From Halorientalis persicus (GTDB lineage: Archaea; Halobacteriota; Halobacteria; Halobacteriales; Haloarculaceae), in contig NZ_FOCX01000002.1 in the NCBI RefSeq assembly GCF_900110215.1, positions 186,001-250,000 on the forward strand: 64,000 nucleotides of DNA, given 5' to 3'. The position numbers and the translations under genes are program-made. Positions 15,012 through 21,693 of the stretch are shown piece by piece (position 1 is the first letter of the stretch; each line of letters opens with the position of its first letter). The notes under the pieces were generated by a model. That model did not search any database, was not told the origin of the DNA, and worked only from the letters and a program-made list of their open reading frames with translations.

Positions 15012-15096
15012 GCCGAGGTAGCCTAGCCTGGCCAAGGCGGTTGCTTCGAGAGCAACTGTCCTCACGGACTCAGGAGTTCAAATCTCCTCCTCGGCG
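15012..15096 (+). tRNA. tRNA-Ser (anticodon CGA)
   Basis: A class II tRNA that folds completely. The acceptor GCCGAGG (15012-15018) pairs with CCTCGGC (15089-15095), with discriminator G at 15096. The anticodon stem GTTGC/GCAAC encloses the loop TTCGAGA with anticodon CGA, which reads UCG serine codons. A long variable arm GTCC/GGAC follows. The T arm is AGGAG-TTCAAAT-CTCCT. There is no intron and the CCA end is not encoded. Copies of its 3' half recur downstream. Confidence 0.95.
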
Positions 15097-15101
15097 TCAT
15101 T

Positions 15102-15147
15102 TTCGCGGCGCAATACGGTGAGCGAAGCGAACCGTCAGCGCCGCGAA
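15102..15147. repeat. Long inverted repeat just after tRNA-Ser
   Basis: TTCGCGGCGC (15102-15111) pairs perfectly with GCGCCGCGAA (15138-15147). Inside it ACGGT (15115-15119) pairs with ACCGT (15131-15135) around a short loop. It could be a tRNA terminator/processing hairpin or part of a repeated module. Confidence 0.75.
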
Positions 15148-15154
15148 TGACCCG

Positions 15155-15168
15155 CAGGAGATTTGAAT
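15155..15168 (-). repeat. Inverted partial copy of the tRNA-Ser T arm
   Basis: The minus strand reads ATTCAAATCTCCTG, matching the T-loop and 3' T-stem of the tRNA-Ser gene at 15077-15088. Confidence 0.6.
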
Positions 15169-15198
15169 CAGGGAGTGGAGCGAAGCGGAACGACCGTG

Positions 15199-15220
15199 GT
15201 TCAAATCTCCTCCTCGGCGT
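15199..15220 (+). repeat. Direct repeat of the tRNA-Ser 3' end, copy 2
   Basis: It matches the T loop, T stem and 3' acceptor strand of tRNA-Ser (15076-15096 in the gene), ending in TCGGCGT. It has no 5' half and cannot form a tRNA. It looks like an attachment-site or duplication scar. Confidence 0.8.
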
Positions 15221-15333
15221 TTTCCACGAGCCAACACGGCGAGTGAAAACGCCGTCGAGCGATTTGAGCAGACGAGTCGCAGCCCCGGAACGGCCGAGCG
15301 GAGCGAGGCCGCACGCCCGGAACGTCTCGGCGT

Positions 15334-15363
15334 GTTCAAATCCCCGCCTCGGCGTCATTTTCG
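15334..15363 (+). repeat. Direct repeat of the tRNA-Ser 3' end, copy 3
   Basis: It begins GTTCAAAT, has CCCCGCC in place of CTCCTCC, then returns to the gene sequence through GGCGTCATTTTCG. The match extends beyond the tRNA into its flank (15096-15105). It therefore carries more than an att core. Confidence 0.75.
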
Positions 15364-15477
15364 AGGGACGGCGAGTGACGTGCGCCGCGGAGGAAGACCA
15401 CTCGGTTCCGCCACCGCTTTTCAAAAACCCACGAAGGGAGGCGGTGTAATCAAGCGGCGGCGTGCGTATGTGATGGC

Positions 15478-16806
15478 ATGGCAAAGACAGATGCGGGTGG
15501 GCCGGAGGGGCCGGACGGCTGGCCGGTCGTCGGCAACACCTTCCAGTTCGCGCGCGATCCGTTCGCGTTCTACGAGCGGTGTGCGGACTTCGGGGACGTA
15601 GTGCCCTACGAGGTCGGCGGGATGACGTTCTACCTCGTCACCCACCCCGAAGACATCGAGCGAGTTCTCTCGACGGATCACCGCAAGTTCGAGAAGGGAG
15701 CCTTCCAGCGCGAACAGTTGAGCGGCGTCCTCGGCGAGGGGTTGCTGACGAGCGAGGGCGAGCGGTGGCGCGAGCAGCGCCAGCGCATCCAGCCCACCTT
15801 CGGGCCGGAGAAGATCGACTCGTACGTCGAGGTCATGACCGACTGTGCCCAGCAGGCCGGCAGGCGATGGTGGGACGGGCGACAGATCGCGGTCGACGAC
15901 GAGATGCGCCGCATCACCGTCCAGATACTCGCGCGGTCGCTGTTCGGGACCGACATCAGCGACCACGTCGAGACCATCGCGGACGCGATGGGCGACATCG
16001 GCGCCCAGGCCGAAGCGCCGGCGGCGACGGCCCTGCTCCCGGAGTGGCTCCCGACGCCGTGGGACCGCCGGGCCCAGCGTGGCGTCGACGCCATCGACGG
16101 CGTGATCGAGGACCTGATCGAGCGCCGGCGGGGCGACGCCGAGGGGCGGGACGACCTGCTCTCGACGCTCCTGGTGGCTCACGACGATGGCGAGATCACC
16201 CGGGGGACGCTCCGAGACCAACTCGTCACGTTCCTGCTTGCGGGTCACGAGACGACCTCGCTGGCGCTGACCTACACCTGGTACCTGCTGGCGGAGAATC
16301 CAGCGGTCCGAGAGCGGTTACACGACGAGATCGACGACGTACTCGGCGATGCGGTCCCGACGATGGCGGACCTCGGAGACCTGTCCTACACCGAGCAGGT
16401 CGTGACCGAGGCGATGCGGTACTACCCGCCAGTGCACCGGGTCGTCCGCGAGGCCAGCGAGGACGTGCAGTTGCGCGGCCGGGCCGTCGAGGCAGGGTCG
16501 ATCCTCACGATGCCTCAGTGGATCGTCCATCGGGACGCACGGTGGTACGACGACCCCCTGAAGTTCCGGCCCGAGCGGTGGGTCGAGGACCGTGACCGCC
16601 CGGAGTACGCGTACTTCCCGTTCGGCGGCGGGCCGCGGCGCTGTATCGGGATGCGCTTCGCGAAGCTAGAGGCACAGCTCATCCTCGCGACACTGGCCAG
16701 AAATTTTCGGCTAGAACTGGTCGGCGACGGCGGGCCGCTGGACCTCACGTCGGGCGTGACCGCATCGCCGACCGAATCCGTCGAGATGGTGCCCCGGGTA
16801 CGCTGA
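15478..16806 (+). CDS. Cytochrome P450
   Basis: A 442-residue soluble haem-thiolate monooxygenase. The I-helix motif AGHETT lies at 255-260, the K-helix ExxR (EAMR) at 311-314, PERW at 365-368, and the haem loop FPFGGGPRRCIG has its Cys ligand at 389. The general look is that of the haloarchaeal CYP174-like group. The substrate (possibly a carotenoid or fatty acid) cannot be inferred. The redox partner is not adjacent. ATG 15478 gives the normal N-terminus with its proline-rich WPVVGN motif. Confidence 0.95.
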   Translation: MAKTDAGGPEGPDGWPVVGNTFQFARDPFAFYERCADFGDVVPYEVGGMTFYLVTHPEDIERVLSTDHRKFEKGAFQREQLSGVLGEGLLTSEGERWREQRQRIQPTFGPEKIDSYVEVMTDCAQQAGRRWWDGRQIAVDDEMRRITVQILARSLFGTDISDHVETIADAMGDIGAQAEAPAATALLPEWLPTPWDRRAQRGVDAIDGVIEDLIERRRGDAEGRDDLLSTLLVAHDDGEITRGTLRDQLVTFLLAGHETTSLALTYTWYLLAENPAVRERLHDEIDDVLGDAVPTMADLGDLSYTEQVVTEAMRYYPPVHRVVREASEDVQLRGRAVEAGSILTMPQWIVHRDARWYDDPLKFRPERWVEDRDRPEYAYFPFGGGPRRCIGMRFAKLEAQLILATLARNFRLELVGDGGPLDLTSGVTASPTESVEMVPRVR

Positions 16807-16994: not shown

Positions 16995-17270
16995 CTACGG
17001 CCCGCTGGCTCTTTCCGAGGCCTCACTCTGTTCGGCCTCGCCTGTCACATCACCCGTCCGATCCGTCGCGAACCCGGTCCGGAAGGCGATGTAGGCGAGG
17101 ACGCAGATGAACAGGATCGGCGGCAGGATCATGAAGCCCCAGAGCCCGTCGAGCCCCCACTGGAGGAGGAGGATCACGTCCGCAATCCCGAGCGCGAAAA
17201 AGGGCAGGATCCAGAGCGCCGCCTGCTTGCGGCTGACCCCGCCCTCGTCGCCGGACAGCAATTCGTCCAT
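16995..17270 (-). CDS. Small two-span membrane protein, function unknown
   Basis: A 91-residue protein with two hydrophobic segments (about residues 18-37 and 44-64), joined by a short loop and followed by a hydrophilic, acidic C-terminus. The span composition and clean ATG at 17270 support a real gene. I do not recognise a family. It ends next to the 73-bp tandem repeat and is divergent from the P-type ATPase gene 160 bases away. Confidence 0.7.
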   Translation of the reverse strand: MDELLSGDEGGVSRKQAALWILPFFALGIADVILLLQWGLDGLWGFMILPPILFICVLAYIAFRTGFATDRTGDVTGEAEQSEASERASGP

Positions 17271-17356
17271 ACCTCACGTTCGGCTTTCGAGGTGAAAAGC
17301 ACCGCGTTGTCCACCCCGCCCGACCCACCCAGAGTTGTTAACAGATTCGCGCTCAG

Positions 17357-17407
17357 TTATTAATGAAAGGCAGTACGGGGCGGGGTAGTAACAGCGCGAT
17401 TAATAAG
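17357..17407. promoter_or_regulatory. P-ATPase promoter with inverted-repeat halves
   Basis: TTATTAAT (17357-17364) and its reverse complement ATTAATAA (17399-17406) flank a GC-rich centre. The right half also serves as a TATA box about 25-30 bases before the ATG at 17431. The arrangement could be an operator for a metal sensor. Confidence 0.5.
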
Positions 17408-17430
17408 ACCTGAACGGCTACGGTCACGTA

Positions 17431-19740
17431 ATGACCGACGGTACCGTGGACGGCGATGGGGACGCGGGCGAGGCGGTCCAGCTCCGGCTTGAGGTGCCGG
17501 AGATGGACTGTCCGTCGTGTGCCGGGAAAGTCGAGAACGCGCTCGACGGCGTCGACGGCGTGACCGGGTCGGAGTTCAGTCCGGCGACGGGCGTGGTCAC
17601 GCTGACGGCGACCTCGGCGGCGGCCCGCGAGGCGGCCGTCGAGGCGGTCGAGGCGGCCGGCTACGAGGTGACCGACGCGTCCGAGGGCGGGACGGAGCGG
17701 TCGGGACCGGCCGCGACGGAACCGGTCTGGAAGACGACGCGAGCGAAAAAGACCGCCGTCGGTGCCGTGCTGTTGCTGGTCGGGCTCGCGGTCCGATTCC
17801 TGCCGCTGGGGCTGGACGTGGCGGTCGCCCGGCCGTTCGGCCACCCGCTGTTCGCTGCCGACGTGGTGCTGCTGGTGGCCGTCGTCGCGAGCGGCGAGGT
17901 GATCGTCCGGAACGGTTACTACTCGGCGCGGAACCTGAGCCTCGACATCGACTTCCTGATGACCGTCGCAATCCTCGGCGCGACGGCGGTGTCGCTGTTC
18001 ACGCCCGAGCGGTTGCTGATCGAAGCGGCGTCGCTCGCAGTCCTGTTCAACGTCGCCGAGTTGCTGGAACGGCACGCCGTCGACCGGGCGCGGAACTCCC
18101 TGACCGAACTGCTCGAACTCGCGCCCGAGCGGGCGCTGGTCCGTCGGGACGGGGAACTGACCGAGGTCCCTGCCGGCGAGGTCGCAGTGGGCGAGACGAT
18201 CGTCGTCGAACCCGGCGAGAAGGTCCCGCTGGACGGCGAGGTGATCGAGGGCGAGAGCGCGGTCAACGAGGCTCCGATCACGGGCGAGAGCGTCCCCGTC
18301 GACAAGACCGTCGGCGACGAAGTGTACGCCGGGTCGATCAACGAGAGCGGCTACCTCGAATTCGAGGTGACCGCCGGAGCCGACGACACCACGCTCTCGC
18401 GGGTGATCGACCTCGTGGAGGGCGCACAGGAGCGCAAGACCGACCGCGAACAGTTCGTCGACCGCTTCGCGAGTTACTACACGCCGATCGTCGTCGCGGC
18501 AGCCATCGTCACCGCGACGGTCCCGCCGCTGGTCCTCGGGTGGCCCGGGATCGAGTGGCTCGTCAACGGGATCACGTTCCTCGTGATCGCCTGTCCCTGC
18601 GCCTTCGTCATCTCGACGCCGGTCACGGTGGTCTCTGGCGTGACTAGCGCGGCACGCAACGGCGTCCTCGTGAAGGGCGGCGACCACCTCGAAGCGATGG
18701 GCGAGGTCGACGCCGTCGCCCTCGACAAGACGGGGACACTGACGACCGGCGATCTGGGCGTGACCGACGTGGTGCCGCTCAACGGCAACGACGAGGAAGA
18801 CGTGCTCCGCTGTGCCCGCGGGCTGGAGGCCCGGAGCGAACACCCCATCGCGACGGCAATCGTCGGCCACGCCAGCGCCGAGGGCGTCGAGAACGGCGAC
18901 CGCGGGGTCGAGGGCTTCGAGAGCCTGACCGGGCAGGGCGTCCGCGCCGACCTCGGCGGTGCGACCCACTACGCCGGCAAGCCCGCCCTGTTCGAGGACC
19001 TGGGCTTCGATCTCGGCCACGTCCACTTCACGACCGACGCGGGCGAGTTACCCGCCGACGCCCGCGACCAGTGTGAGCGCGCGGGCTGTCTCGACCTCGT
19101 CGAGGACACCATCCCGCGGCTCCAGAGCGAGGGCAAGACCGTGATCCTCGTCGGCACCGAAGAGGAAGTCGAGGGGCTGATCGCCGTCTCCGACACGATC
19201 CGGCCGAACGCGGCCCGCACCGTCGCGGCGCTGCGCGAGCAGGGACTGACGACGGTGATGCTCACCGGCGACAACGAGGGGACCGCCCGCGCCGTCGCCG
19301 AGGAAGTCGGCGTCGACGAGTTCCGGGCCGGTCTCCTCCCCGAGGAGAAAGTCGAGGCCATCGAGTCCCTGCAGGACGAATACGGCGAGGTCGCGATGGT
19401 CGGGGACGGCATCAACGACGCGCCCGCCCTCGCCACGGCCGACGTGGGCGTCGCAATGGGCGCGGCCGGGTCGGACACGGCCATCGAGACCGCCGACGTG
19501 GCCCTGCTGGGCGACGACCTCTCCCGACTTCCCTACCTCACGAAACTCGCCAGCCGGGCCAACGGCGTTATCCGGCAGAACATCTGGGGCTCGCTGGGCG
19601 TCAAGGCCGTCCTCGCGCTCGGAATCCCCTTCGGCGTCGTCGGCGTCATCCACGCCGTCCTGATCGGCGACGTGGGGATGACCAGCGCCATCACCGGCAA
19701 CGCGATGCGGCTGGCGCGGCTGAAGCCCGAGGACCTCTAA
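17431..19740 (+). CDS. Heavy-metal P1B-type ATPase, probably Zn2+/Cd2+/Pb2+ exporter
   Basis: A 769-residue metal-efflux ATPase. The N-terminal metal-binding domain has MDCPSC (residues 25-30). About eight membrane spans are present. TGES is at 284-287, the CPC metal site at 388-390, the phosphorylated DKTGT at 432-436, and GDGIND at 658-663. A Lys in the seventh span (about 725) and the Asp of GDVGMT in the eighth (about 747) are the hallmarks of the P1B-2 group (ZntA/CadA), not the copper group. It stands alone, with a promoter carrying inverted-repeat halves that could bind a metal sensor. Confidence 0.93.
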   Translation: MTDGTVDGDGDAGEAVQLRLEVPEMDCPSCAGKVENALDGVDGVTGSEFSPATGVVTLTATSAAAREAAVEAVEAAGYEVTDASEGGTERSGPAATEPVWKTTRAKKTAVGAVLLLVGLAVRFLPLGLDVAVARPFGHPLFAADVVLLVAVVASGEVIVRNGYYSARNLSLDIDFLMTVAILGATAVSLFTPERLLIEAASLAVLFNVAELLERHAVDRARNSLTELLELAPERALVRRDGELTEVPAGEVAVGETIVVEPGEKVPLDGEVIEGESAVNEAPITGESVPVDKTVGDEVYAGSINESGYLEFEVTAGADDTTLSRVIDLVEGAQERKTDREQFVDRFASYYTPIVVAAAIVTATVPPLVLGWPGIEWLVNGITFLVIACPCAFVISTPVTVVSGVTSAARNGVLVKGGDHLEAMGEVDAVALDKTGTLTTGDLGVTDVVPLNGNDEEDVLRCARGLEARSEHPIATAIVGHASAEGVENGDRGVEGFESLTGQGVRADLGGATHYAGKPALFEDLGFDLGHVHFTTDAGELPADARDQCERAGCLDLVEDTIPRLQSEGKTVILVGTEEEVEGLIAVSDTIRPNAARTVAALREQGLTTVMLTGDNEGTARAVAEEVGVDEFRAGLLPEEKVEAIESLQDEYGEVAMVGDGINDAPALATADVGVAMGAAGSDTAIETADVALLGDDLSRLPYLTKLASRANGVIRQNIWGSLGVKAVLALGIPFGVVGVIHAVLIGDVGMTSAITGNAMRLARLKPEDL

Positions 19741-19741
19741 C

Positions 19742-20530
19742 TTACTCCCCCTCGAATTCGGGCTCCCGGTCCTCCAGCATCGCCGCGAACCCCTCGCGGT
19801 GGTCGTGGCTGTCCCAGACCTCCCGCGAGCGCTCGTACTCCATGTCCAGCCCCTCCTCCAGGGACACGTCGAAGGCGCTGTTCAGACACCCCTTGGCGCG
19901 GGTCATCCCCATCGGGGCCCGCGTCGCGAGTTCGTCGGCGTACGCGCGGGTCGCCTCGTCGACGGTCCCCGGTTCGACGACCTCGTTGACCAGGCCGATC
20001 CGCTCGGCCTCGTCGGGGTCGATCGTATCCGATTTCAGCACCAGTTCTTTGGCCTTCGCCAGCCCGATCAGCCGGGGGAGGCGCTGGGTGCCCCCGCCGA
20101 ACGGGAAGATGCCGAGTTTCGTCTCCTTGAGGCCGTAGGCGGCGTCGGCACCGATGATCCGGAAGTCGAAGGGCAGGGTCAGCTCGAAGGCCCCGGCGAT
20201 GGCGGCCTTCTCGATGCCGACGACGGTGGGCACCGACAGTGCCTCGATCCCGTCGAAGACGCCCCGGAGGCCGTCGTAGATTTCCTGATGGCCGTCCATG
20301 TCGGCCTCGGCCATCAGTTCCAGATCCATCCCGGCCGAGAAGACGGGACCGTTGCCCAGCAGTGTCAGCACGCGCACGTCCTCGCGGTCGTCGACGGTCT
20401 CGATTGCCGCCCGGAGGTCGTCGACGACCGTCAGGTCCATCGCGTTGCGTTTCTCGGGGCGATCCAGCAACACGTCAGCGCGGTGGTCCTCGAACGAGAC
20501 GGCGACGGTTCCCGATCCGATCGGTTGCAT
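19742..20530 (-). CDS. Enoyl-CoA hydratase/isomerase family protein
   Basis: A 262-residue crotonase-fold enzyme acting on acyl-CoA thioesters. It shows RPEKRNAMDL at the N-terminus, an oxyanion-hole motif FSAGMDLELM, and EKAAIAGAFELTLPFDFRI. The second catalytic position reads ETKLGIFPFGGGTQRLPRLIG. In the second oxyanion motif the usual GGG/AGA pattern is IAGA. The precise reaction (hydratase, isomerase or other) is open. ATG 20530 gives the normal start. It is convergent with the P-ATPase gene, with one base between the stops. Confidence 0.88.
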   Translation of the reverse strand: MQPIGSGTVAVSFEDHRADVLLDRPEKRNAMDLTVVDDLRAAIETVDDREDVRVLTLLGNGPVFSAGMDLELMAEADMDGHQEIYDGLRGVFDGIEALSVPTVVGIEKAAIAGAFELTLPFDFRIIGADAAYGLKETKLGIFPFGGGTQRLPRLIGLAKAKELVLKSDTIDPDEAERIGLVNEVVEPGTVDEATRAYADELATRAPMGMTRAKGCLNSAFDVSLEEGLDMEYERSREVWDSHDHREGFAAMLEDREPEFEGE

Positions 20531-20607
20531 GGGGTCACCCACTGCAGAGGGAAACAAAAAGACTCGGTCGCGCCACCCGCGCGGGACGGTGGGGAGTACT
20601 CGGCCGA

Positions 20608-20730
20608 TCAGATCGCGAACGAGTGGCTCCGGCAGTTGGGGCAGGTCGGGCGGGCCTCGCCGGTGGTCGAGAGGTCCTGAATCCGTGATTCAGCGCCACA
20701 GGACCGGCAGATGAGTTCGTGATGTCCCAT
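20608..20730 (-). CDS. Tiny zinc-ribbon protein (40 residues)
   Basis: An open frame of 41 codons with two paired cysteine knuckles, CRSCG and CPNC, separated by about 19 residues. This is the pattern of haloarchaeal small zinc-finger proteins. It starts at ATG 20730 and ends TGA at 20608. A TATA-like CTTTAGAA lies about 25-30 bases upstream on the minus strand. The protein probably binds one zinc ion and mediates protein or nucleic-acid contacts. The partner is unknown. Confidence 0.8.
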   Translation of the reverse strand: MGHHELICRSCGAESRIQDLSTTGEARPTCPNCRSHSFAI

Positions 20731-20814
20731 ATATCAGCGTTCGTGGAGTGATTCTAAAGACGTCCCGACCGTTCTCGGTTCGTGAGGACAGTGGGTTGGA
20801 ATAACCTCACGGTC

Positions 20815-21693
20815 TCACTTCTCGAGCAGGATCGTCGCGTCGCCGGTGAGGGCGGGGTCGCCATCGTCGTCCCGGAGGACCGTCTCGAACCGCCAGCGGT
20901 CGGCCGCGAGGCGCTCGGTCGCGGTGACCTCGGCGGCGACCGTCTCGTTGATTCCGACCGGACCACGGAAACTGAGGTTCTGGGAGAGGTAGATCACGGT
21001 GCCAGGAAGCCGGGCCAGGGCTGCGCTGATCACCCCCGCCGTGAGGGCACCGTGGACGATCCGGCCGCCGAACCGCGTCTCGGCGGCGAATGCCTCGTCG
21101 AGGTGGAGCCGGTTGGTGTCGCCGCTCGCCTCGGCGAAGGCCGCGACATCGGCCGCCGAGAGTCGCTTCTCGAATCGGAAGGTCTCACCCTCTTCGATCG
21201 ACTCGGGGCGGTCCCCGTCGTCGGTGAACGCCCAGTCGACCCGATCGTAGGCCGTGTCGTTGGTTCCAGGACGGTCCGCGGCCAGCACGCCGCCATCCGT
21301 GCCGATCCGGGGACCGACCTGTGGGATGTAGGTGGCCAGATCCGTCGTCGTCACGACACCGACGAGTTCGCCGTCCTCGAGCACCGCGAGTCGTTTCCGA
21401 CCGGTATCACGGAACACCGCGACGGCCCGCTGGACCGGGGCCGCCGGAGCGACGGTCGGTGGCTCGCCAGCCGTGACTTCACCGACCGGTGTCGCCTCGA
21501 GGTCGATCTCTTCGATCACCAGATCGACGATATCGGTCAACTCGACGATGCCGACGGGTTCGCCGTCTGCCACGACGATCGCGGAGCCGATCGTCTCCTT
21601 CCGGAGTCGCCGGGCGACTCGTTCGACCGGGCGGTCGGCGGGAACGGTCACCGCGGGCGAACTCATCACCTCGCGGACGGTAATCGGTATCAC
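20815..21693 (-). CDS. CBS-domain pair fused to a MaoC-like hotdog hydratase domain
   Basis: A 292-residue fusion. Residues 5-120 hold two CBS motifs (one starting VREVMSSPAVTV, then a second containing VVTTTDLA), which usually sense adenine nucleotides. Residues 155-290 form a MaoC/R-specific enoyl-CoA hydratase hotdog domain with the hydratase-2 motif GDTNRLHLDEAFA followed by IVHGAL, so the catalytic Asp and His appear present. The start is uncertain. GTG 21693 gives a compact CBS start, but GTG 21705 and an ORF from 21774 are possible. The fusion suggests energy-dependent control of an acyl-CoA step. Confidence 0.82.
   Translation of the reverse strand: MIPITVREVMSSPAVTVPADRPVERVARRLRKETIGSAIVVADGEPVGIVELTDIVDLVIEEIDLEATPVGEVTAGEPPTVAPAAPVQRAVAVFRDTGRKRLAVLEDGELVGVVTTTDLATYIPQVGPRIGTDGGVLAADRPGTNDTAYDRVDWAFTDDGDRPESIEEGETFRFEKRLSAADVAAFAEASGDTNRLHLDEAFAAETRFGGRIVHGALTAGVISAALARLPGTVIYLSQNLSFRGPVGINETVAAEVTATERLAADRWRFETVLRDDDGDPALTGDATILLEK

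Follow-up and report, generated by a model that had tools for sequence, protein, structure and literature searches.

Copies of the tRNA-Ser(CGA) 3′ end alternate with hairpins

Why is the 3′ end of the tRNA-Ser(CGA) gene of Halorientalis persicus repeated behind the gene? In the window analyzed here (64,000 nucleotides, whose positions are used throughout), the gene occupies positions 15012 to 15096 on the plus strand, as both ARAGORN and Rfam (RF00005, 54 bits) agree. Its last 20 nt (repeat E, 15077 to 15096, TTCAAATCTCCTCCTCGGCG) correspond to tRNA nt 54 to 73, starting from T54, and recur downstream in two direct copies at spacings of 123 and 135 nt. Copy 1 (15200 to 15219) is identical at 20 of 20 positions and copy 2 (15335 to 15354) at 18 of 20. 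An earlier note, made from the letters of this locus alone, had reported both the direct copies and an inverted piece, and both hold: the inverted piece AGGAGATTTGAA (15156 to 15167) is complementary to the tRNA end at all 12 of its 12 positions. A second, weaker inverted piece, GATTTGA (15261 to 15267), stands before copy 2. Outside this locus, the genome contains no match of this length to the tRNA-Ser(CGA) 3′ end.

The sequence between the copies is structured, and all of its features lie on the plus strand. Hairpin I of unit 1 (15097 to 15150) begins right after nt 73 with the T-rich stretch TCATTTTC, folds at −29.7 kcal/mol (z = −5.75), and belongs to a hairpin class that also stands behind other tRNAs. 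It is followed by hairpin II (15151 to 15219; −32 kcal/mol, z = −4.2), whose 5′ arm is formed by the inverted piece, whose core is TCAGGGAGTGGAGCGAAGCGGAACGACCGTGG (15168 to 15199), and whose 3′ arm is copy 1. Nearly the same cores are found behind Met, Arg, and Val tRNAs of this and other genomes. Hairpin I of unit 2 (15220 to 15250, TTTTCCACGAGCC...GGCGAGTGAAAAC) is recognized by its sequence and has hairpins of the same type in congeners; its fold is weak on its own (−12.7 kcal/mol, z = −1.4). The weak inverted arm, a core that recurs in distal units of several congeners (15268 to 15334, CAGACGAGTCGCAGCCCCGG...CGTCTCGGCGTG), and copy 2 complete the unit, and a terminal, partly decayed hairpin I, identified by comparison with congeners, follows the last copy (15355 to 15380, end approximate; TCATTTTCGAGG...). 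As a whole, the 304 nt 3′ of the tRNA fold better than 100 of 100 shuffled sequences (z = −5.5). The earlier note was right that hairpins follow the tRNA and copy 1, but the CACGG/CCGTG arms that it described are parts of two distinct hairpins.

Within the locus, an Rfam search (cmscan, E ≤ 1) recovered the tRNA alone, and the array matches no known RNA family. A gene for a MoxR-type AAA ATPase lies upstream on the minus strand and one for a cytochrome P450 lies downstream. No integrase was detected among the six neighboring proteins tested (MoxR-type AAA ATPase, P450, P-type ATPase, metallo-beta-lactamase fold, and winged HTH proteins). Open frames cross the whole array on both strands (15062 to 15484, minus; 15147 to 15449, plus), and automatic annotation may therefore call spurious proteins there. 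We read the locus as a two-unit "tRNA-tail" array belonging to a haloarchaeal family of structured non-coding cassettes.

Units have a fixed anatomy and covarying cores

The order of the parts is the same from unit to unit, with hairpin I directly behind the tRNA and hairpin II next. Hairpin I, which opens right behind nt 73 with a T/C-rich stretch, can be absent, as at one locus (L017). Hairpin II consists of the inverted arm, the core, and the copy, and its 5′ arm is complementary to the 3′ end of the host tRNA itself. The inverted arm matches its own copy better than it matches the copies of other tRNAs in 53 of 64 units (P = 3e−9, an optimistic value, as related units are not independent) and often has a single bulged base. 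Haloarchaeal units measure about 95 to 160 nt and vary in sequence.

Hairpin II cores fall into a few recurring types that are common to different tRNAs: the core TCAGGGAGTGAAGCGAAGCGGAACGACCGTGG occurs behind both Arg and Ser tRNAs, and near-identical cores occur behind Val and Met tRNAs. Type A (CCCTGnnAGTCGC...GTCTnnCTCCGG) and type B (GTAGAnnAG...CTnnGCGTGG) have a skeleton in common, with a conserved T·T mismatch. Core pairs covary structurally; two adjacent pairs of type A are paired in 32 of 33 cases, compared with 15 to 17 expected by shuffling (the units are not independent). The spacers at the tRNA-Ser(CGA) loci of related genomes likewise combine a limited number of hairpin types in varying order. 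A different, long hairpin block, roughly CCACCTTTTT...CGTGGGCGAAAAA, stands behind some copies (L044, L051, and L056 in this genome, L199 in the congener G003) and might represent a further type of terminator unit.

Amplification of a tRNA terminator module, one of two origins put forward in the earlier note, comes closer to this anatomy than the other. The unit does carry the tRNA 3′ end, a T/C-rich tail, and a hairpin. The inverted piece, in turn, belongs as 5′ arm to a second hairpin with covarying pairs, which the note had not recognized.

Copies of the own tRNA 3′ end are found across haloarchaea

Many tRNA genes carry such arrays, of which the earlier reader had seen one locus only. Among the tRNA genes found in the genome, 46 lie outside a tRNA cluster, and for 18 of these, nt 54 to 73 of the gene itself recur downstream in direct orientation (28 copies, 18 of them exact). 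The congener G003 has own-end copies behind 20 of 43 tRNA genes. Upstream of the array-bearing tRNA genes, the number of own-end copies is 0. When tRNAs were swapped, 3 of 1,452 downstream comparisons matched in H. persicus, each by chance or through a neighboring tRNA, and 3 of 1,222 matched in G003. These controls and the reversed-pattern control described below rule out chance and low complexity as the source of the copies. Own-end copies were also seen behind 2 of 33 tRNA genes of Halobacterium salinarum, an incomplete sample, and behind 0 of 28 in a Thermoplasmatales genome.

Both H. persicus (G000:C22, about 17000 to 21000) and the congener (G003:C1:2240734-2244715) also have a tRNA cluster of about 25 to 30 genes with a virus- or provirus-like layout, and the clustered tRNAs are without exact 3′-end copies. 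Behind tRNA-Gln(CTG) of H. persicus, ARAGORN reports another tRNA-Ser(CGA), placed partly over a tRNA-tail unit; this is probably a false call due to the copied 3′ end.

A search pattern for hairpin II (ATTYGAA, 30 to 60 nt, GTTCRAAT), which was matched exactly and so misses diverged units, has 13 forward places in the H. persicus genome, all 13 behind tRNA genes, and the reversed control has 0. Four further genomes, one from the same family and three from other families or genera of the order, contain 52 places. Forty-five of them are behind a tRNA, where 38 of the 45 copies differ from the end of their own tRNA by at most one mismatch, and the remaining seven look like chance. The pattern is present in 184 of 195 haloarchaeal genomes, with reversed-control matches in two only, while 242 genomes of the phylum from outside the order have few matches, at about the control rate as judged from the table rather than from totals.

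The tRNA-Ser(CGA) gene itself was found in 37 of 39 related genomes, a good part of which have 1 to 5 copies within about 600 bp. Copy number varies, so the three-copy layout of H. persicus is not fixed among its relatives, and no large insert was found at this locus in the related genomes, where the earlier note had suggested looking for elements between the copies. Among 80 listed archaeal loci with the same 20-mer, copies follow in haloarchaea only (9 loci), with none in the roughly 40 listed loci of Thermoplasmata, Methanoperedens, Micrarchaeota, and others.

Whole units are gained or lost between related species

Related species differ in the cassettes that they carry, with no harm to the tRNA. 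At tRNA-Leu(CAA), three congeners have an empty site, in which nt 73 runs straight into CTGTTGGCC(A/G)CTACGGCC, and three other congeners have one unit of about 95 nt followed by the identical flank. The breakpoints between presence and absence fall exactly at tRNA nt 73/74. Two of the occupied sites have the same core and a different hairpin I, and two have most of hairpin I in common and a different core, so hairpin I and the core are exchanged independently of each other. With empty and occupied sites occurring naturally in a single genus, the origin of the tail repeats becomes open to comparative tests.

Turnover may be concentrated near the tRNA. At tRNA-Lys(CTT) and tRNA-Leu(TAA), the unit common to two congeners is the tRNA-distal one, and the extra units adjoin the tRNA. 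In arrays of at least two units, the proximal copy is the more exact one in 15 cases and the distal copy in 3, with 28 ties (P = 0.008, with units that are not independent). Such comparison of congeners does not separate gain from loss, since deletion between 20-nt repeats also leaves a clean empty site.

Hairpins I and II differ in strand bias

A T/C-rich tail is kept behind the copies: runs of at least four T's follow 42 of 177 copies (24%), compared with 1.5% of random places inside units. After a shuffle control, hairpin I is stabler as RNA of the sense strand in 109 cases and of the opposite strand in 32 (P = 6e−14, units non-independent), a bias that points to a function at the transcript level. 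The cores of hairpin II have no such bias (P = 0.33), so a purely RNA-level hairpin II was rejected as an account, and a role at the DNA level would also fit. We also considered whether the arrays compensate for weak terminators and discarded this idea: T-runs are equally frequent behind tRNAs with and without arrays, and the slightly lower T count behind tRNAs with arrays (P = 0.015) is not convincing. For Haloferax, one study reports termination at T-stretches as well as hairpins at some termination sites (PMC7237163), which makes a hairpin with a T-rich tail plausible as a termination or processing signal.

Recombination between tRNA-tail cassettes as an explanation

We propose that the arrays are probably recombining, structured tRNA-tail cassettes that are transcribed as pre-tRNA trailers, an explanation that has, in our estimate, roughly an even chance of holding as a whole. 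One cassette comprises hairpin I and hairpin II, with the 3′ arm of hairpin II copying host nt 54 to 73 and a T/C-rich tail again after it. Arrays would grow, shrink, and exchange parts when their identical 20-nt ends, or their cores, recombine with one another, for the most part on the side next to the tRNA, and the tRNA would survive because every such event rebuilds the same 3′ end and hence an intact tRNA. With less certainty, we suggest that transcription extends into the units, which would then form trailers of the pre-tRNA; hairpin II together with the copy and its T-rich tail could there serve as serial back-up signals for termination or 3′ processing. The arrival of a core behind a new tRNA, with arms that match this tRNA, is not accounted for by simple recombination.

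A possible but doubtful alternative is that the cassettes are actively mobile, as a non-autonomous hairpin element that enters at the T-loop/3′ end of the tRNA by means of a recombinase acting in trans, with new units added next to the tRNA, as in an integron array devoid of genes. Active mobility would agree with the exact boundaries and clean empty sites, with turnover at the proximal end, with imperfect palindromes whose arm has a recurrent single-base bulge, and with cores that lack strand bias and are the same at different tRNAs and in different genomes. However, units bearing a foreign tRNA 3′ end, which simple transposition would predict and which would have been its direct proof, were not found, and the six neighboring proteins of the locus offer no candidate recombinase. 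Carriers were not found either: the exact 20-mer and the type C core matched no viral contig, seven viral matches to a fragment of the type A core are without tRNA-end arms and look like chance, and the sole haloarchaeal plasmid match (Natrinema) is once more located downstream of its own tRNA-Ser(CGA). That a putative enzyme inserts folded single-stranded cores at the T-loop/3′ end, copying the tRNA's own end into both arms, so that a single set of cores could become established behind almost every tRNA and the tRNA would be restored intact each time, seems quite unlikely.

It is also unlikely that an array encodes a small RNA with a function of its own, as annotated for E. coli rttR, or acts as an antisense element whose inverted arm can pair with the 3′ end of the host tRNA and thereby control tRNA maturation. 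The free variation in its presence behind the same tRNA between congeners indicates that the array is not essential, and no Rfam family matches it, even though the covarying core with its conserved internal loops, the arms complementary to the 3′ end of the host tRNA, and the sense-strand RNA signature of hairpin I would suit either role. Nested att scars, the other origin put forward in the earlier note, would be left by integrative elements that use the tRNA 3′ end as attB. Integrases that target tRNAs duplicate a segment of the kind seen here, from the T-loop to the 3′ end. We nevertheless regard such scars as very improbable, because there is no integrase among the six tested neighbors and no inserted element between the copies at the locus in 37 haloarchaeal genomes. 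Neither this genome nor the related ones showed a large insert or a distant copy, the spacers between the copies are a conserved structured module, and the same pattern recurs at about 40% of tRNA genes.

Comparison with known systems

The att sites used by integrative elements of archaea and bacteria resemble the arrays in having a direct repeat that spans the tRNA gene's T-loop through its 3′ end, but the arrays are without an element or a nearby integrase and consist of many tandem units with short, conserved, structured spacers. Integron arrays (attI/attC) offer a likeness in the imperfect palindrome of each unit, the inferred additions at a fixed anchor, and the exact removal of units, whereas haloarchaeal units are free of genes and their palindrome arms follow the sequence of the host tRNA. 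Like MITEs and REP/REPIN elements, the units are short, non-coding, hairpin-forming, and numerous within a genome. They differ in that every place of the pattern in the H. persicus genome is behind a tRNA and in that, unlike the terminal inverted repeats of MITEs, which are identical across a family, their arms and termini follow each host tRNA.

Among known cases, the E. coli tyrT repeat (rttR/tpr) comes closest, with the same anatomy in one operon; the distal repeats of tyrT and tyrV we take to be the Rfam family RtT. In our own comparison, the tRNA-Tyr end recurs three times in direct orientation downstream of tyrV (+156, +334, and +512). The inverted arm GGGGAAGGAT stands before each copy and is complementary to it, and the tail TCACTTTCAAAAG comes after the tRNA as well as after copies one and two. 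Haloarchaeal arrays are alike in having tandem direct 3′-end copies downstream of a tRNA, with an inverted arm before each copy and a tail like that of the tRNA after it. In contrast, the E. coli units are near-identical and 178 nt long, while the spacings here are 123 and 135 nt and the units differ in sequence; tyrT copies include CCA and start at about nt 58, while haloarchaeal copies span nt 54 to 73; and the repeats of one operon stand against about 40% of tRNA genes in the two fully surveyed genomes. Unlike tyrT/RtT, the arrays also have several core types common to different tRNAs and no Rfam sequence match. These differences in sequence, unit size, core diversity, and spread over tRNAs set the arrays apart: they resemble the tyrT repeats in form, but we do not count them as members of the RtT family. 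The "t-elements" of Photobacterium tRNA operons may be a further parallel.

Within the open-access literature, we found no earlier description of the haloarchaeal arrays, although one may exist in subscription journals, which lay outside the search. If our reading is right, duplicated tRNA 3′ ends in haloarchaea should not be taken for the att sites of integrated viruses or plasmids, and open frames that cross units should not be called as genes. The tails of many tRNA genes across a whole archaeal order would then contain a structured element, apparently not described before, that turns over fast and copies its host tRNA, and what was a curiosity of the single tyrT operon of E. coli would extend to a haloarchaea-wide system.
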